The notes under the pieces: model-generated
The model's database searches: none
What the model saw: the letters and a program-made list of their open reading frames with translations, nothing else
Told to the model about the DNA's origin: nothing
Program-made: the position numbers and the translations under genes
Assembly (NCBI GenBank): GCA_023248855.1
Contig: JAHFDS010000009.1
Coordinates: 1 to 59,786, forward strand
Length of the DNA stretch: 59,786 nucleotides
From: Myxococcales bacterium
Lineage (GTDB): Bacteria; Myxococcota_A; Polyangia; JAHFDS01
Direction: 5' to 3'
Shown here: in pieces, positions 25,080-38,878 of the stretch
Layout of the letters: every line of letters begins with the position of its first letter
How positions within the stretch are numbered: position 1 is the stretch's first letter

Positions 25080-26087
25080 ATGGCGAACGAACGACTCGAG
25101 GTGGGGGTCCTCGGCGCGGGCAGCTGGGGCACTGCTCTCGCGAAGCTGCTGGCGGACTCGGGCCACGTGGTCACGCTGTGGGGCCGCAGCGCCGAGGCGA
25201 TGCGGCAGATGGACCAGGCGCGCGAGAACACGACCTACCTAAAGGGCGTGCGCTTTCCGGACCGGCTGCGCGCGACGGGCGATCTGGCCGCCACCGTCCG
25301 GGGCAAGGTCATGGTGCTGTCGGTCGTGCCGTCGCAGGTCACCCGCGCGACGCTCGCGGCCTGCGCCTCCGAGATTCCGCGCGGCGCGTTGCTCGTCGGG
25401 GCCTCGAAGGGCATCGAGAACGAGACGCTCGCGACCATGGACCAGGTGTTCGAGGACGTTGTGCCGCACGCGCGCGCGGTGTTCCTGTCGGGGCCGAGCT
25501 TCGCGCGCGAGGTCGGGCGCGGCGTGCCGACAGCCGTGGTCGCAGCCTCTCGCGATGGCGAGGCCGCGCAGGCAGCGCAGCGCGCCTTCTCGAGCGATCG
25601 CTTCCGCGTCTACACGAGCGACGACGTCGTCGGGGTGGAGATCGGGGGGGCCCTCAAGAACGTCATGGCGATCGCCTCGGGCATCTCGGATGGCCTGGAA
25701 TTCGGCTACAACACGCGCGCGGCGATCATCACGCGCGGGCTCGCCGAGATGGCGCGCCTGGCGGTCAAGCGCGGCGGCAACCCGCTCACGCTCGCGGGAC
25801 TGGCCGGCATGGGCGACCTCGTGCTCACGTGCACGGGCGACCTGTCGCGCAACCGTCATGTCGGGGTGGAGCTCGGGCGCGGCCGCACGCTCGAGGAGAT
25901 CCTGGGCGCCATGAAGGAGGTCGCGGAGGGCGTGCGGACCACCAAGAGCGCGCACGACCTGGCGCGACGCGAGGGGGTGGACATGCCCATCACCGCGGCG
26001 GTGCACGCGGTGCTCTACGGCGGCAAGCCACCGCGCGAGCTCGTGATCGACCTCATGAACCGGTCGCTCAAGGAAGAGCGCGGCTAG
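25080..26087 (+). CDS. gpsA: Glycerol-3-phosphate dehydrogenase [NAD(P)+]
   Basis: Makes sn-glycerol 3-phosphate from DHAP for phospholipid synthesis. 335 aa: Rossmann motif VLGAGSWGTALA (residues ~10-21), LVGASKGIENETL, FLSGPSFAREVGRG, catalytic-domain EIGGALKNVMAIASG (Lys) and FGYNTRAAIITRGLAEM, GLAGMGDLVLTC. TAGCAT (25068-25073) is 6 nt before the ATG and no Shine-Dalgarno is seen, suggesting leaderless translation. Its TAG stop is part of the CTAG at the left end of a mobile-element-like repeat. Confidence 0.96.
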   Translation: MANERLEVGVLGAGSWGTALAKLLADSGHVVTLWGRSAEAMRQMDQARENTTYLKGVRFPDRLRATGDLAATVRGKVMVLSVVPSQVTRATLAACASEIPRGALLVGASKGIENETLATMDQVFEDVVPHARAVFLSGPSFAREVGRGVPTAVVAASRDGEAAQAAQRAFSSDRFRVYTSDDVVGVEIGGALKNVMAIASGISDGLEFGYNTRAAIITRGLAEMARLAVKRGGNPLTLAGLAGMGDLVLTCTGDLSRNRHVGVELGRGRTLEEILGAMKEVAEGVRTTKSAHDLARREGVDMPITAAVHAVLYGGKPPRELVIDLMNRSLKEERG

Positions 26088-26347
26088 TGCCGCTCGTCAG
26101 AAGTTGGACCGGAGTAGAGTTGTGGAGAGAAATCGTCGAACGCCCTGCGTGCGCCACTCGCGAGCGCAGAGCGCGAGCAAACGAGACACCTAGTGCTGTC
26201 CGTGATTCCAGTGGAATCATCTGGTTCGACGAGCGGCCCCAGGTGTTTGTCTTGCGCACGCTTCGCGTGCGCGAGTGCTGCGGCCAGCTGGCAGGTGAAG
26301 GCTGCTCCGAGCTCAAATGCCGTCCAACTACTGGCGGGCAGCACTAG
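26084..26347 (+). mobile_element. 264-bp miniature inverted-repeat element, copy 1
   Basis: Non-coding unit bounded by CTAG on both sides (26084-26087, 26344-26347). The first 26 nt and the reverse complement of the last 26 nt agree at 22 positions (CTAGTGC-GC-CG-CAG-AGTTGGAC). A second copy at 37514-37777 has the same length with only 7 differences. Internal structure: palindrome TGATTCCAGTGGAATCA, hairpin GCGCACGC-TTC-GCGTGCGC, and an internal end-like CTAGTGCTGTCCG at 26190. No transposase. Ends are compatible with IS630-type TA or IS5-type CTAG target duplication. Base composition is visibly less GC-rich than the flanks. Confidence 0.88.
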
Positions 26348-27393
26348 TGCCGCTTGGCAGGCGCCTCGGGCTGCTGCTCGACGACATCTCGCTCGAGCAC
26401 GCGGAGCCGCAAGGGCACCCGGAGCGGGCGGAGCGGCTGCGCGCGATCGCGCGCGAGGTCGACGCCGGCGGGTTCTGGGACCGCTGCTTGCGTGTGCGAT
26501 CGCGGCCCGCGACGCGCGGCGAGCTGGAGGCCGCGCACGCGCCGCGCCTCCTGGATCTGCTTGAGCAGGACCTGCCAGGACACGAGGGGCACATCGACGC
26601 CGACACCTACTACGCCCCGAAGAGCTGGGAAGCCGCGCTCCACGCGGCGGGTGGCGCGGTCGCGCTGGTCGAGCGTGCCCAGGCCGGCGACATCGAGGCG
26701 GGCGCGGCGCTGGTCCGGCCTCCGGGCCACCACGCGACGGGCGATCGACCGATGGGCTTTTGCCTCCTCAATAACGTCGCCGTGGCCGCGCGCGCCGCGC
26801 TGGCCGGAGGTGCCAGGCGCGTGGCGATTGTGGACTGGGACCTGCATCACGGCAACGGCACCCAGGAGATCTTCTGGCAGGACCCGGGCGTCCTCTATGT
26901 GTCGACCCACCAGTACCCGTTTTACCCGGGGACGGGTGCGGTGGACGAGATCGGTGAGGGGCCTGGTCGGGGCTACACGCTCAACGTGCCCCTGCCGGCA
27001 GGGGCTGGTGACGCGGAGTACGAGCACGTCTTCGCCCGCGCCATTGGGCCTGCGCTTCGGGCCTACGCACCCGATTTTCTGCTGATCTCGGCCGGGTTCG
27101 ACGCGCATGTGCGCGACCCGATCGGGCAGATGCGCCTTTCGACCGGGGCTTTCCATCGGCTGACGCATCGCCTCCGAGACGCGGTCGGCGCGGCGCCGGT
27201 CGTGGCCGTGCTCGAGGGAGGCTATGATCTGGAAGGTCTGGCGAGCTCGAACCGCGCGATGCTGGATGCGTTAGAGGGGCCCGCGGCGACCCCAGGCGGG
27301 GCGGCCAAGGCCCATCCGGTGGCGGCCCGGGTGCTCGGGGCGCTGCGGGCGGCCCTCGCGGGCACGCCCCTCGAGGGGGCGATCGGGTCGTGA
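26347..27393 (+). CDS. HDAC-like amidohydrolase (histone deacetylase superfamily)
   Basis: 348 aa from GTG at 26347, whose G is the last base of the CTAG at the right end of the repeat (a frame from 26317 would start inside the element). Zn-dependent deacetylase fold: PPGHHA (H128/H129), DWDLHHGNGT (D165, H167 as Zn ligands), D252 in SAGFDAH, LEGGYD (Y293). All catalytic residues are present. Close to class II HDAC/HDAH and acetylpolyamine amidohydrolases; the substrate may be acetyl-lysine or acetylpolyamine (an arginine decarboxylase gene, speA, lies 9 kb away). Promoter and ribosome site, if any, are supplied by the element. Confidence 0.9.
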   Translation: MPLGRRLGLLLDDISLEHAEPQGHPERAERLRAIAREVDAGGFWDRCLRVRSRPATRGELEAAHAPRLLDLLEQDLPGHEGHIDADTYYAPKSWEAALHAAGGAVALVERAQAGDIEAGAALVRPPGHHATGDRPMGFCLLNNVAVAARAALAGGARRVAIVDWDLHHGNGTQEIFWQDPGVLYVSTHQYPFYPGTGAVDEIGEGPGRGYTLNVPLPAGAGDAEYEHVFARAIGPALRAYAPDFLLISAGFDAHVRDPIGQMRLSTGAFHRLTHRLRDAVGAAPVVAVLEGGYDLEGLASSNRAMLDALEGPAATPGGAAKAHPVAARVLGALRAALAGTPLEGAIGS

Positions 27394-27475: not shown

Positions 27476-28957
27476 ATGGCCGAAGAAGTTTCCTCGTCGG
27501 AGGCGGGCAGCACCATCGCTGGGCGGTACACGCTCGTGCGGCACCTTGCGACGGGTGGGATGGCAGAGCTGTACCTGGCGCGCCTTGGCTCCCTGGGTGG
27601 TTTCCAGAAGGACGTCGTCATCAAGCGCATCCATCCGCGCTTTGCCGACCACGCCAAGATCACGAAGCTCTTCCTCGACGAAGCGCGCATCGCTGCGACG
27701 CTCACGCATCCCAACATCTTGAACGTGCTCGATGTCGGGGAGGAGAACGGCACGCTCTACATCGTCATGGAGTACATCCGCGGCGAGAACCTCTGGACGA
27801 TCGCGCGACGCGGCGTGGAGGCGCACCGCTTCCTGCAGCTGTCGCACGCGGTTCGCATCGTCTCGACGGTCTGCGAGGGCCTGCACTACGTGCACACCCG
27901 CAAGGGGCCGGACGGTCGGCCGCTCGAGATCGTGCACCGCGACGTGTCGCCATCGAACATCGTGGTGTCCGCCGACGGCGTGGCCAAGCTGGTCGACTTC
28001 GGCATCGCGCGGTGGGCGCTGCGCTCGTTCGACGACCGCAGCCTGGTGACGGGCAAGCCGAACTACATGGCGCCGGAGCAGCTCCGCGGGGTGCAGGTGG
28101 ATGCGCGCGCGGATGTCTTCGCGCTCGGCATCGTGCTCTGGGAGATGACGGTCCAAAAACGCCTGTTTCGCGGCAAGCCCGACGAGGTGACGCGGCGGAT
28201 CCTCGACGAGCCAGTTCCACGACCGAGCGAGATCGTGGCCAGCTATTCGCCGGAGCTCGAGCAGATCGTCATGCGCGCGCTGGAGAAGCAGCCCGAGGCG
28301 CGCTGGGAGACCTGCGCTGACCTGCACGACGCGCTCGAGACCTTCGCGATCGAGCACAAGCTGCGCGCCTCGTCGATCGCGATAGGTCTGTTCGTGCGGG
28401 ACCTGTTCGCGATGCGTACGCAGCCGTCGTACCAGGACCTCGAGGAGGCGCGGGCCTGGGGCGAGGAGGACGAGATCGAGATCGAGGAGGACCTCGACTT
28501 CGATCGCGCGGAGGCCGAGAGCTCCCCCCTCGGGGGAGCGGCCCCGAAGGGCGCGCCGCCGCGGCGCCAGCCGACCCCGCCACCACCACCGGCGCCAGTG
28601 ACCGAGACGGAGGGGACGCTGGCGAGCCCTGGGACCACGGCGCTGACCACGAGCGGCCGCCAGCCGGCGCTGGCCACGAGCGGGCGTCAGGCGACCGTGC
28701 CGCCGGTGCAGGCGGTCGCGGCGCTCACGCAGGTGGGGCGCAAGAGCGTGCCGCCTCTGGCGACCGAGGGGCGCAAGAGCGTGCCGCCCCCCGGGACCAG
28801 CGGACGACAAAGCGCCCCACCCGGGCGCTCGTCGCGACCGCCGATGGACGCCCGCAAGGTGCCGCTGCGACCGCGCTCGCGCCTGCCACTGCTGCTCGTC
28901 CTGACCGGCACCCTGCTCGTCGCGGCCGTGTTCGCGTGGACCACGCTGCACAAGTAG
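27476..28957 (+). CDS. Membrane-anchored Ser/Thr protein kinase
   Basis: 493 aa from ATG at 27476 (GGAG upstream; a TTG at 27428 is also open). Kinase domain ~residues 15-290: glycine loop ATGGMAELYLA, K50 in VVIKR, HRDVSPSN (154-161), DFG (174-176), APE (199-201). HRDVSPSN is typical of the myxobacterial non-RD subgroup. A disordered linker with SGRQ/GRKSVPP repeats (~residues 360-465) leads to one C-terminal TM helix (PLLLVLTGTLLVAAVFAW), so the kinase is cytoplasmic and tail-anchored with no periplasmic sensor. Adjacent to ilvA; targets unknown. Confidence 0.94.
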   Translation: MAEEVSSSEAGSTIAGRYTLVRHLATGGMAELYLARLGSLGGFQKDVVIKRIHPRFADHAKITKLFLDEARIAATLTHPNILNVLDVGEENGTLYIVMEYIRGENLWTIARRGVEAHRFLQLSHAVRIVSTVCEGLHYVHTRKGPDGRPLEIVHRDVSPSNIVVSADGVAKLVDFGIARWALRSFDDRSLVTGKPNYMAPEQLRGVQVDARADVFALGIVLWEMTVQKRLFRGKPDEVTRRILDEPVPRPSEIVASYSPELEQIVMRALEKQPEARWETCADLHDALETFAIEHKLRASSIAIGLFVRDLFAMRTQPSYQDLEEARAWGEEDEIEIEEDLDFDRAEAESSPLGGAAPKGAPPRRQPTPPPPPAPVTETEGTLASPGTTALTTSGRQPALATSGRQATVPPVQAVAALTQVGRKSVPPLATEGRKSVPPPGTSGRQSAPPGRSSRPPMDARKVPLRPRSRLPLLLVLTGTLLVAAVFAWTTLHK

Positions 28958-34494: not shown

Positions 34495-35577
34495 TCACAG
34501 CCCGAGCTGCCTCCTAAGGCCCGGCCAGAGCGGCCCGCACACGCGGCCGACGCTGCCGCCGGTCTCGCAGGCGGGGCCCGTGAGCGCGCGCAGGCCTCCC
34601 TTGCCGAGCACCTCCCAGCGCTTCGTGCGACGCCGCGCCGCGATGGCCTGGTCGGTGCGGAGGTCCGCGCACAGCCAGAGCGCGTCGTCCTGGGCCACCA
34701 CGCAGCGGGGATGCACAGGGGCTTGTGTTCGCGTGAAGTGCTGCGCGTCCGTCGCGCGCAGGAGGGCCCCGTCGACGATGGCGTAGGTGGCATCGCGCGC
34801 GATGGCGACCCCGGAGAGCTCCTGGGCCGAGAGCACCACGCGCCACTGCCGCAGCGTGGCGTCCGCGCGCAGGAGCACGGGGCGCTCGTCGACGAAGCCG
34901 GTCGCCAGCACCGGCCCGCCGGCGCGCGCGCCCTGGCCGCCCACCAGGAGGAAGATGAGCCGGGCGCCCGCCGGCAGCTCGACCGCGAGCTCGCGAAAGG
35001 TCGTGCCGTCGTCGGTCGAGCGGTAGAGCCGGTTCGTGCCCTTGCCGATGGCGTCGTACGCCGAGACCAATACCTCGCGCCCACGGACGAGGATCGACTT
35101 GAACCACACGGTGCGCGAGCGCAGCGTCGTCCTGGCGAAGTGGCGGCCGTCGTCGCGGCTCACGTAGAGGCCGTTCTCGACACCGTTCGTGCTGGTGACC
35201 GCCCACACGCGGCCCCGCGGGTCGACGACGACGTGGTCCACGTACATCTTGTCGAGCGGCCCGCCGGCCATCTGGAAGTCGCAGCCGCCGTCGCGCGAGA
35301 TGGCGAGGCCATCGTGCGAGGCCGCGAAGAGCGTGCCCCGTGCCGAGACCGCGTAGGGCGGCTGGTAGGGCGGCTCGTAGCCCACGCCTCCGTGACACGC
35401 CCACCGCCACGCGTGTCCGTCGCGTGACAGGATCGTGCCGATCGGCGTGCCGGCGACGAGCTGTCCGTGCCCGGCGGCGAGCGTCGTCACGTCGGGCACG
35501 TGCCTCGGCTGGGCCCGGGCGGGTGTCCACGCTCCCGCGAGCAGGAGCGCAACGTGAATTGCCTTTGGCGTGCGCAT
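34495..35577 (-). CDS. Secreted beta-propeller protein with BNR/Asp-box repeats
   Basis: 360 aa. Sec signal MRTPKAIHVALLLAGAWTPARA, then repeated Asp-box blades (ISRDGGCDF, VSRDDGRHF, RSTDDGTTF) as in sialidase/YCF48-type propellers; no sialidase Arg triad was identified. Two Cys near the end (ACETGG, RVCGP) could form a disulphide. Function unknown. The start is 20 bp from that of divergent speA; TATATC lies 6 nt before the ATG on this strand. Confidence 0.75.
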   Translation of the reverse strand: MRTPKAIHVALLLAGAWTPARAQPRHVPDVTTLAAGHGQLVAGTPIGTILSRDGHAWRWACHGGVGYEPPYQPPYAVSARGTLFAASHDGLAISRDGGCDFQMAGGPLDKMYVDHVVVDPRGRVWAVTSTNGVENGLYVSRDDGRHFARTTLRSRTVWFKSILVRGREVLVSAYDAIGKGTNRLYRSTDDGTTFRELAVELPAGARLIFLLVGGQGARAGGPVLATGFVDERPVLLRADATLRQWRVVLSAQELSGVAIARDATYAIVDGALLRATDAQHFTRTQAPVHPRCVVAQDDALWLCADLRTDQAIAARRRTKRWEVLGKGGLRALTGPACETGGSVGRVCGPLWPGLRRQLGL

Positions 35578-35583
35578 GCGATC

Positions 35584-35591
35584 GATATACT
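35584..35591. promoter_or_regulatory. Overlapping divergent -10 boxes (propeller gene / speA)
   Basis: GATATACT contains TATACT (35586-35591) for speA and, on the other strand, TATATC (35589-35584) for the propeller gene. Each is followed by exactly 6 nt and then a start codon (GTG 35598; ATG 35577). The spacer between the coding regions is only 20 bp, leaving no space for ribosome sites. The -35 regions would lie inside the opposite genes and are weak (e.g. TTGGCG, 35565-35570). Confidence 0.6.
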
Positions 35592-35597
35592 GCCCTC

Positions 35598-37517
35598 GTG
35601 AGTCAGGCCAAGCTTCCCCGCCGCTGGACGGTCCAGGATTCCCGCGAGCTGTACAACGTCACCAACTGGTCGAACGGATACTTCGGCATCAACGATGCTG
35701 GGCACCTCGTCATGCACCCAGAAGGGGCGCCGGGCCCCTCGCTCGACGTCAAGGAGCTCGTGGACGAGGTCGGCACGCGTGGCATCGGGCTCCCGCTCCT
35801 CATCCGCTTCTCGAACATCTTGAAGGCGCGCATCGTGGAGCTCAACGAGGCGTTCCGCAAAGCGATCGCGGACTACGGCTACGGGGCACCCTACAAGGGC
35901 GTCTATCCGATCAAGGTCAACCAGCACAAGTACATCGTCGAGGAGATCGTCCACTACGGCCGCCAGTACCACTATGGGCTCGAGGCCGGCTCGAAGCCCG
36001 AGCTGCTCGCCGTGATGGCGATGATGGACGACCCCGAGGCGCTCATCGTCTGCAATGGCTACAAGGACGAGGAGTACGTCGAGTCCGCGCTGTACGCGTC
36101 CAAGCTCGGCCGCACCGTCATCATGGTGGTCGAGAAGATGAGCGAGCTCGCCCTCATCCGGTCGGTCTCGGAGCGCACGGGCATCAAGCCGCGCATCGGC
36201 ATGCGCGCCAAGCTCGCGACGCGGGGCTCGGGGCACTGGGAGGCCTCGGGCGGCGACCGCTCGAAGTTCGGCCTCACCGCGCAGGAGCTCATGGAGGCGA
36301 TCGCGTACCTGCGCGAGCACGAGATGCTCGACTCGTTCGAGCTGCTCCACTTCCACCTCGGCAGCCAAATCTCCGCCATCCGTTCGGTCAAGGACGCGCT
36401 CCGGGAGGCGGTGCGCTTCTACTGTGAGCTGCACAAGCTTGGCGTGCCGCTCAAGTATCTCGACGTCGGCGGTGGCCTCGGCATCGACTACGACGGCTCG
36501 CAGACCAACTTCCAGTCGTCGATGAACTACTCGATGCAGGAGTACGCGAACGACATCGTCTTCCAGACCGGCGACATGTGCAACGAGGCTGGCGTGCCGC
36601 ACCCGACCCTGGTCAGCGAGTCCGGCCGCGCGGTGGTGGCGCACCACTCGATCCTGGTGGTCGACGTGCTCGGGGTCGGCGAGTTCAACGTCGGTAGCCT
36701 CCCGGACTCCCTGCCAGCGACGGTGCCGCCGACGGTGCGCAACCTGTGGGACACCTACCGCGACGTCACGCGCAAGAACGTCATCGAGTCCTATCACGAC
36801 GCGGTCGGCTACAAGGACGAGAGCCTGACGCTGTTCACGCTCGGGCACCTCTCCCTCGAGGAGCGCGTCCTCGCGGAGAAGCTGTTCTGGGCCATCTGCC
36901 AGAAGGTGCAGCGCCTGACGCGCGAGCTGCCGGAGCTACCCGAAGAGCTCGCGGGCCTCGAGCGCTTGCTGTCCGACACGTACTTCTGCAACTTCTCCAT
37001 GTTCCAGTCGGTGCCCGATTCGTGGGCGATCGACATGCTGTTTCCGATCATGCCGATCCACCGGCTCGAGGAAGAACCCACGCACCGCGCGGTGCTGGCG
37101 GACATCACCTGCGACTCGGATGGCAAGATCGACCACTTCATCGACCGCCGGGACGTCAAGGCGGTGCTCGAGCTGCACCCGTTCGTGCCCGACAAGGACT
37201 ACCACGTCGGCATCTTCCTCATCGGCGCGTACCAGGAGATCCTCGGCGACTTGCACAACCTGTTTGGCGACACCAACACGGTGCACGTGTCCCTCGAGGA
37301 GGGCGGTGGCTACCGCATCGACCACGTGGTGGCGGGCGACACGGTGACCGAGGTGCTGAACTACGTGAGCTATTCGCGCGAGGACCTGGTCGTGCGGGTG
37401 CGTCGCGCCGCCGAAGACGCCGTGCGCGCTGGCCGGATGACGCTCGAGGAGACGCGCCGACTGGTCCGCATGTACGAGGGTGGCCTCTCGGGCTACACGT
37501 ATCTCGAACGCGACTAG
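35598..37517 (+). CDS. speA: Biosynthetic arginine decarboxylase
   Basis: PLP enzyme converting arginine to agmatine, the first step of the agmatine route to putrescine. 639 aa from GTG at 35598, close to the 630-660-aa SpeA norm (the frame is open further upstream, antisense to the propeller gene). Alanine-racemase-like barrel with YPIKVNQ (PLP Lys), HFHLGSQ, DVGGGLGIDYDGS, and C-terminal domain with DITCDSDGKID. Likely leaderless (see the overlapping -10 boxes). The TAG stop is in the CTAG of repeat copy 2. No agmatine-using gene adjoins. Confidence 0.96.
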   Translation: MSQAKLPRRWTVQDSRELYNVTNWSNGYFGINDAGHLVMHPEGAPGPSLDVKELVDEVGTRGIGLPLLIRFSNILKARIVELNEAFRKAIADYGYGAPYKGVYPIKVNQHKYIVEEIVHYGRQYHYGLEAGSKPELLAVMAMMDDPEALIVCNGYKDEEYVESALYASKLGRTVIMVVEKMSELALIRSVSERTGIKPRIGMRAKLATRGSGHWEASGGDRSKFGLTAQELMEAIAYLREHEMLDSFELLHFHLGSQISAIRSVKDALREAVRFYCELHKLGVPLKYLDVGGGLGIDYDGSQTNFQSSMNYSMQEYANDIVFQTGDMCNEAGVPHPTLVSESGRAVVAHHSILVVDVLGVGEFNVGSLPDSLPATVPPTVRNLWDTYRDVTRKNVIESYHDAVGYKDESLTLFTLGHLSLEERVLAEKLFWAICQKVQRLTRELPELPEELAGLERLLSDTYFCNFSMFQSVPDSWAIDMLFPIMPIHRLEEEPTHRAVLADITCDSDGKIDHFIDRRDVKAVLELHPFVPDKDYHVGIFLIGAYQEILGDLHNLFGDTNTVHVSLEEGGGYRIDHVVAGDTVTEVLNYVSYSREDLVVRVRRAAEDAVRAGRMTLEETRRLVRMYEGGLSGYTYLERD

Positions 37518-37777
37518 TGCCGCTCGTCAGAAGTTTGACCGGAGTAGGGCTGTGGAGAGAAATCGTCGAACGTCCTGCGTGCGGCACTCGCGAGCGCAGA
37601 GCGCGAGCAAACGAGACACCTAGTGCTGTCCGTGATTCCAGTGGAATCATCTGGTTCGACGAGCGGCCCCAGGTGTTTGTCTTGCGCACGCTTCGCGTGC
37701 GCGAGTGCTGCGGCCAGCTGGCAGGTGATGGCTGCTCCGAGCTCAAATGCCGTCCAACTATTGGCGGGCAGCACTAG
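37514..37777 (+). mobile_element. 264-bp miniature inverted-repeat element, copy 2
   Basis: Same orientation, length and bounding CTAG (37514-37517, 37774-37777) as the copy at 26084-26347, with 7 single-base differences (about 97% identity). It again begins at the stop codon of the preceding gene (speA), and lies between the convergent speA and mnmA. Short frames within it (~82-86 codons, conserved in both copies) are unlike any known protein and probably not expressed. Confidence 0.88.
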
Positions 37778-37801: not shown

Positions 37802-38878
37802 TCAGGCGGCGATCCAGCCGCCGCCCATCACCCGGTCGCCTTCGAAGAACACGGCCGCCTGTCCGGCGGCGACGGCCCGCTCGGGCGCGTCGAACGTCAC
37901 CTCCACCGCACGCTCGCCGACCCTGACCAGTGACGCCGGAACCGCAGTGTGGCGGTGCCGGAGCTGCACGAGCGCTCGCGTCGGGAACGCGTCGCACAGC
38001 CAGCGGACGTCGTCGACCTGGATGGTGTCGCGCTGCAGGGCCGACGCTTCCGAGAGGGTGACGCGTCCGCTGCCCGCGTCGATCGCCGTCACGTAGCGCC
38101 TGCCGGCGGCCTCCGAGACCCCGACGCCGCGGCGCTGGCCGATCGTGAAGCGGTGAACACCGTCGTGCTCGCCCAGCACGTGTCCGGCCGCGTCGACCAC
38201 GAGGCCGGCCCGGACGGCGGCTCCGCGCCGCAGAGCCTCGCGCGCGACGAACGACGCATGATCGCCATCAGGCACGAAGCAGATCTCCTGCGACTCCGCC
38301 TTGTCTGCGTTCGGAAGCCCGAGCGACCGGGCCTGCTCGCGCACGGCGTCCTTTTGGAGCTCGCCTAGCGGGAAACGAAGGTGGGGCAGGGCACCTGGTG
38401 GGAGCGCGAACAGGAAGTACGCCTGATCCTTGGCCGCGCTGGCCCCTCGATGCAGGTTCGGTCGCCCCGTTCGATCGTGCTCGATGCGCGCGTAGTGCCC
38501 GGTCGCGAGCGCGTCCGCGCCGAGGGCCCGGGCGTGGCGGAGCAGGGGACCGATCTTGACGTGCTCGTTGCAGCGCACGCAGGGATTCGGCGTGCGCCCG
38601 GCCAGGTACTCGCTCACGAAGTCCTCGATCACCCTCGCGCGAAAGCGCTCGGCGTCGTCGATCACGTAGTAGGGGATGTCGAGGTGCGCGGCCACGCGCC
38701 TCGCGTCCTCGAGATCACGCGGTCCGCAGCAGCGGCCCACCGCGGCGGGGGTGCCCCCCGCGTCGTAGAGCCGCATCGAGAGCCCGATCACCCGATGGCC
38801 CGCCGCGACGAGGAGCGCGGCAGCCGTGGCGCTGTCCACGCCGCCCGACAGGCCCACCGCGATGGTCTCGCGTGTCAT
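37802..38878 (-). CDS. mnmA: tRNA-specific 2-thiouridylase MnmA
   Basis: Thiolates U34 of Lys, Glu and Gln tRNAs. 358 aa: PP-loop [13 protein letters not shown] near residue 8, [17 protein letters not shown] with the catalytic Cys, [20 protein letters not shown] with the second Cys, and a C-terminal beta-barrel domain. ATG overlaps the rlmE stop by 4 bp, so two RNA-modification genes are coupled. Confidence 0.96.

Follow-up and report, generated by a model that had tools for sequence, protein, structure and literature searches.

The 264-bp repeat that occurs twice in the window (the whole stretch of DNA analysed, 59,786 nucleotides) is, we conclude with high confidence from sequence comparison, a non-autonomous DNA transposon, or MITE, of the IS630 family, which would be moved by a transposase acting in trans. 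The family is new but belongs to a familiar kind, the bacterial IS630 MITEs such as RUP, and a search of the open-licence literature found no description of it. As elements of this kind are already well known, its general interest is moderate; the analysis assigns a parent family to a repeat that is abundant and young, in a myxobacterial lineage that has otherwise gone unstudied, and provides a case of a compound, nested miniature element as the spreading unit.

The two copies in the window

The features of the two copies are as follows.

26084..26347, + strand: MITE copy 1, 264 bp from CTAG to CTAG, a mosaic of two young subfamilies
26084..26109, + strand: left terminal inverted repeat of copy 1, end-pattern match
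26322..26347, − strand: right terminal inverted repeat of copy 1, end-pattern match
26190..26242, + strand: inner nested mini-element at the hairpin apex of copy 1, CTAG...CCAG here and CTAG...CTAG, 52 bp, in the family consensus
37514..37777, + strand: MITE copy 2, 264 bp, one of four identical copies in the genome
37514..37539, + strand: left terminal inverted repeat of copy 2, end-pattern match
37752..37777, − strand: right terminal inverted repeat of copy 2, end-pattern match
37620..37672, + strand: inner nested mini-element of copy 2, recognised from the family consensus and from an older cousin at locus L112

The initial annotation had described two copies of equal length and the same orientation with 7 differences, inverted 26-bp ends agreeing at 22 of 26 positions, CTAG boundaries and no transposase gene. 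This description stands: both copies are 264 bp long, lie on the + strand and are 97.35% identical over 264 bases; CTAG is seen at all four edges; and the single open frame of the element carries no Pfam domain. The figure of 22/26 holds for copy 1, both by direct reading and by the pattern, while the ends of copy 2 agree at 20 of 26 positions. Four matches to the end pattern were found in the window and none in 100 shuffles, from which we conclude that the pattern is not due to chance. A whole copy folds as a full-length hairpin on one strand (z = −6.0 against dinucleotide shuffles), and comparison of the MITE with Rfam found no family.

An unbroken frame of 87 codons runs through the MITE (26084-26347, frame 1) and ends on the terminal TAG, and forward frame 1 is open in 24 of the 33 full-length copies described below. 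We do not regard this frame as a gene, since it lacks any domain and is interrupted in some of the copies. Elsewhere in the window, positions 634-713 and 27929-28008 form an 80-nt inverted repeat pair that is 79% complementary.

Copies across the host genome

The host assembly (8.4 Mb in 724 contigs) is from the Myxococcota, and protein matches of the ORF near the element lie mainly in Kofleriaceae and other Myxococcales MAGs (Myxococcota/Deltaproteobacteria). Many copies at unrelated sites, as expected of a MITE, were found in this genome: BLAST matched the element at 45 places, and 33 distinct full-length copies were extracted, each with different flanks. Searching the genome for the 26-bp end, a check suggested by the initial annotation, gave 103 matches (51 + 52), and a reversed control pattern gave none. 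Plasmids, phages and viral contigs searched for the MITE yielded no match.

Eight of the 33 copies are mutually identical, as are four others that include window copy 2. The movement had earlier been proposed to be recent or continuing, and these groups of identical copies at different sites agree with that proposal and imply a recent expansion, with the caveat that the identity of copies may be inflated by repeat resolution in a fragmented assembly. Several contigs end approximately 115-121 bases within a copy, indicating that the assembly is broken by the repeat and that the true copy number is higher than the number counted. Copy 1 combines the end markers of the eight-copy group with the interior markers of the four-copy group, a mosaic that may be an assembly chimera or the product of recombination. 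Shortened forms, either truncated or with internal deletions, are frequent and reach a minimum of ∼60 bp. In two divergent copies (L062 and L082), blocks in both hairpin arms (∼27-45 and 215-240) are replaced together.

A probable IS630 parent type in other genomes of the class

A parent of IS630 or IS5 type acting in trans had been proposed, and a transposase gene with the same ends was to be sought in the host genome. None is present in the assembly. Transposase-family searches identified six DDE_Tnp_1 and two DDE_3 loci in the host, of which none has MITE ends, and the only two IS630 pieces are a remnant bearing another type of end (L120) and a gene that is unrelated (L119) and has no recognisable shared ends. 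Across the host and seven relatives, no match to PF01609, PF13358, PF13340 or PF13546 carries MITE ends, and the transposase of the G386 element described below, used as a protein query, has no match in the host at 1e-10. The host parent was either lost, unassembled or never present; a parent in the same genome is usual for an IS630-derived MITE, but is not required.

The parent type was identified only by a class-wide search for the ends. A blastn search with the whole MITE of 58 other genomes of the class, a set without G386, gave nothing convincing (one weak 47-bp match), and within this set it is the ends only that are shared between genomes. When the end consensus was compared with 318 class genomes, it was present in 23, the host and 22 others, and the control gave one match. 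In genome G386 (contig C554), a 1199-bp IS630 element lies between facing inverted ends CTAGTTCCGCCCGGC[C/A]GAAGTT and contains two overlapping frames that encode an IS630 transposase (NF033545 of NCBIfam, 1.1e-52; PF13358, 6.9e-21). A second complete IS630 element with such ends, of 1192 bp, is found in genome G579, and in both elements the right-hand CTAG provides the TAG that serves as the stop codon of the transposase. In a third genome (G003, contig C54) the C-terminus of a transposase runs into the same end at the end of the contig. Two other candidates were set aside: a putative third full element of 1197 bp (L223, in G514) was rejected as its right end is out of register, and L221 (in G535) was not counted as a simple element, both ends being present but 2047 bp apart.

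The G386 protein query has matches in 77 genomes of the class. Relatives of this transposase above approximately 55% identity have ends in which 16-19 of 22 bases are identical to the MITE left end, and more distant IS630 clades have other ends, CTAGTAC... or CTAGTGTCCTG.... The ends are present in 7 of the 12 genomes with the close transposase clade and in 16 of the 306 others, for which the p value of 2.5e-6 is optimistic, given that the genomes are related. Full IS630 transposons with such ends in the class thus bear out the IS630 part of the original proposal, and ends common to IS630 elements of other genomes are consistent with a parent that would act in trans. At locus L189 we also observed a 505-bp deletion derivative of IS630 (positions 1519-2023), retaining transposase fragments and lying in tandem with a complete IS630 element with which it has a CTAG in common; this derivative is likely to be a transitional form between a full element and a MITE.

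Could the MITE instead descend from a parent of the IS5 family, or from another YTAR-duplicating element, with CTAG as a 4-bp duplication? A duplicated CTAG does fit IS5-type elements, and MITEPsy1 of Pseudomonas syringae, tentatively IS5, duplicates CTAG or YTAA (PMC3189936). DDE_Tnp_1 transposases are, furthermore, present in 7/7 relatives searched, where the DDE_3 profile found none. However, no DDE_Tnp_1 (IS4/IS5-type) locus examined has MITE ends, nor does any of the 27 transposase loci outside the DDE_3 set, and there is no DUF4096-type gene in the host. Our preference for IS630 over IS5 follows from IS630 elements with these ends having been found and IS5/IS4-type loci being without them; the IS630 genes between these ends, and the G386 element in particular, mostly refute an IS5 parent, which we regard as very unlikely.

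Less likely still is a REP/BIME-like repeat mobilised by a Y1 (RAYT) transposase, with a tetranucleotide and then a palindrome at each end. Such a structure is seen in some genomes, where the end consists of CTAG and the perfect palindrome TGCCGNNCGGCA, and the whole element does form a hairpin, but the terminal palindrome is not conserved, being mismatched in both window ends, and CTAG stands at both edges and is common to tandem copies. IS630 elements with the same ends speak in large part against this possibility as well.

The CTAG target and stop codons

IS630-family elements move by cut and paste into TA with duplication of the TA (PMC2170065), and IS630 itself is cited as preferring the TA in CTAG (Tenzen and Ohtsubo 1991, cited in PMC2170065). 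Based on this biochemistry, an IS630 transposase supplied in trans would cut the MITE out at its ends, and the element would be inserted at the TA of CTAG with TA duplication, giving C-TA-element-TA-G. Since every target is CTAG, duplication of TA and duplication of CTAG give identical products and are indistinguishable. CTAG is found at both edges in 29 of the 33 full-length copies, the other four having a point change at one edge, and tandem pairs have one CTAG in common (contigs C107 and C383, with C508 similar). In the window, CTAG occurs 31 times against 64 expected from trinucleotides.

The target sites of the two window copies and the genes around them are listed below.

26084..26087, no strand: left CTAG target of copy 1, holding the gpsA TAG stop (26085-26087)
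26344..26347, no strand: right duplicate of the CTAG target of copy 1, its G opening an in-frame GTG codon (26347-26349) in the histone-deacetylase-like gene
37514..37517, no strand: left CTAG target of copy 2, holding the speA TAG stop (37515-37517)
37774..37777, no strand: right duplicate of the CTAG target of copy 2, 24 bp from the mnmA stop
25080..26087, + strand: gpsA, NAD(P)H-dependent glycerol-3-phosphate dehydrogenase, intact, stop inside the left CTAG
26317..27393, + strand: histone-deacetylase-family gene, whose longest ORF begins at an ATG within the MITE
35340..37517, + strand: speA, biosynthetic arginine decarboxylase, intact, stop inside the left CTAG, family match from ORF residue 92
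37802..38878, − strand: mnmA, tRNA 2-thiouridine(34) synthase, intact, convergent neighbour of copy 2

Copy 1 sits between gpsA and the histone-deacetylase-family gene, and copy 2 sits at the speA stop, facing mnmA. Without the element the copy 1 junction would read GGCTAGTGCC, a TAG stop overlapping a GTG start, and the duplication preserves both. The GTG at 26347 was probably the start of the histone-deacetylase-family gene before insertion; the right end of the MITE (26317-26347) provides an ATG in frame with this gene.

A TAG stop lies exactly within the left or right CTAG at 19 of the 33 insertions, both window copies included, compared with 17 of 55 other CTAGs from the analysed host sequence (p = 0.02); a stop was scored where the TAG ended a long ORF whose third codon positions looked coding-like, a simple GC3 rule that makes these numbers approximate. 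Insertions inside genes are below expectation (2/31, tandem copies left out, versus 17/55, p = 0.013). Duplication of CTAG at the junction restores the C-TAG stop. Insertions at stop codons would be harmless and so survive, because CTAG is rare in this genome and is often a gene end (xxC TAG, the last base of a codon plus the TAG stop) that insertion rebuilds, which offers a simple explanation for the tolerance of the element. One might argue instead that the repeat is not mobile but a structural element under selection, a terminator hairpin or transcript 3' end retained where genes stop: its hairpin is strong, and 19/33 copies lie directly against a stop codon, 14 of them in the same orientation. 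We consider this highly improbable, given that 17/55 other CTAGs coincide with stops although no element is present there, that the orientation bias is not significant (p = 0.064), and that the identical, nested and truncated copies speak for a mobile element.

A nested, compound element

In the consensus, CTAG lies on either side of a central 52-bp block, and the arms outside this block form the palindrome ...GACAC-CTAG-GTGTTTG.... At its own ends the block reads CTAGTGCTGTCC and CTAGGGCCGCTCGTC, similar to the outer ends of the MITE. In the older cousin (L112) the ends of the equivalent block, CTAGTGCTGCCCG and CTAGTGCCGCTCGG, clearly match each other, and a fresh MITE copy is inserted at a CTAG of this cousin; at L103 the hairpin apex holds a CTAGTGTCCTG-type mini-element instead. 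No copy without the 52-bp block was found in the host sequence analysed. We infer that the apex CTAG served as a landing site: a palindromic element with CTAG at its apex would have received an older 52-bp relative there, and the compound would then have become the mobile unit and spread as 264 bp.

Relation to known elements

The closest described parallel is RUP of Streptococcus pneumoniae with IS630-Spn1. RUP is likewise IS630-derived and gene-less, with parent-like ends and a TA target, is present in about 100 copies, and inserts into other mobile elements as the host MITE does (PMC2229807). It differs in being 107 bp long with its parent resident in the genome, whereas the host MITE is 264 bp long, has no parent in the assembly, and is distinguished by a strict CTAG target and a nested composite structure. 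The IS630 clade of the G386 element (G579, G003 and others) has in common with the MITE 16-19 of 22 left-end bases and CTAG at both edges, but its members carry a transposase and the MITE does not, and no likeness to the MITE interior was seen by the whole-MITE search, which covered 59 genomes with G386 outside the set. IS630 of Shigella and ISY100 of Synechocystis are autonomous elements of ∼1 kb, with end sequences that presumably differ from those of the host MITE. Correia and ERIC elements are small palindromic intergenic repeats with TA targets, which we take to differ from it in sequence, size and hosts. The likeness to IS630 and ISY100 lies in the DDE transposase of the MITE's inferred parent family and in TA duplication (PMC2170065). 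MITEPsy1 resembles the host MITE in being gene-less with CTAG among its targets, but is 100 bp long, has other ends and is tentatively assigned to IS5 (PMC3189936).

Related CTAG-ended repeats

It is conceivable, though we would not lean towards it, that a class-wide pool of CTAG-specific IS630 mini-elements grows by self-nesting, with CTAG targeting as a safe-harbour strategy. If self-nesting occurs, apex and end CTAGs would serve relatives as landing sites, and compound units would be mobilised as one. If CTAG is a safe harbour, the duplication would rebuild gene stops, and would supply the transposase's own stop in two autonomous relatives.

Several MITE copies adjoin a second repeat type, CTAGTGTCCTG..., at its CTAG end. 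The second CTAG-ended host repeat (CTAGTGTCCTGT...), in part a 60-bp mini-element, was observed at L103 (∼1360-1425) and L120 (1348), in the latter ∼150 bp from the IS630 transposase remnant, and also in the flanks of L037, L040, L043 and L010. Both ends of an IS630 element from another genome (L244) read CTAGTGTCCTGAGTTAGAA. Two MITE copies on separate contigs (C69 and C633, flanks of L041 and L008) are bordered by one and the same sequence, CTAGTTGACGATCGGTCGCCGCGGACGGCGACCG, which is perhaps a third CTAG-ended repeat. Finally, several genomes of genus g43 (L170-L175, L206, L213) contain a MITE family of 248-253 bp with nearly the same asymmetric ends, a different interior and, here too, an internal CTAG-end.
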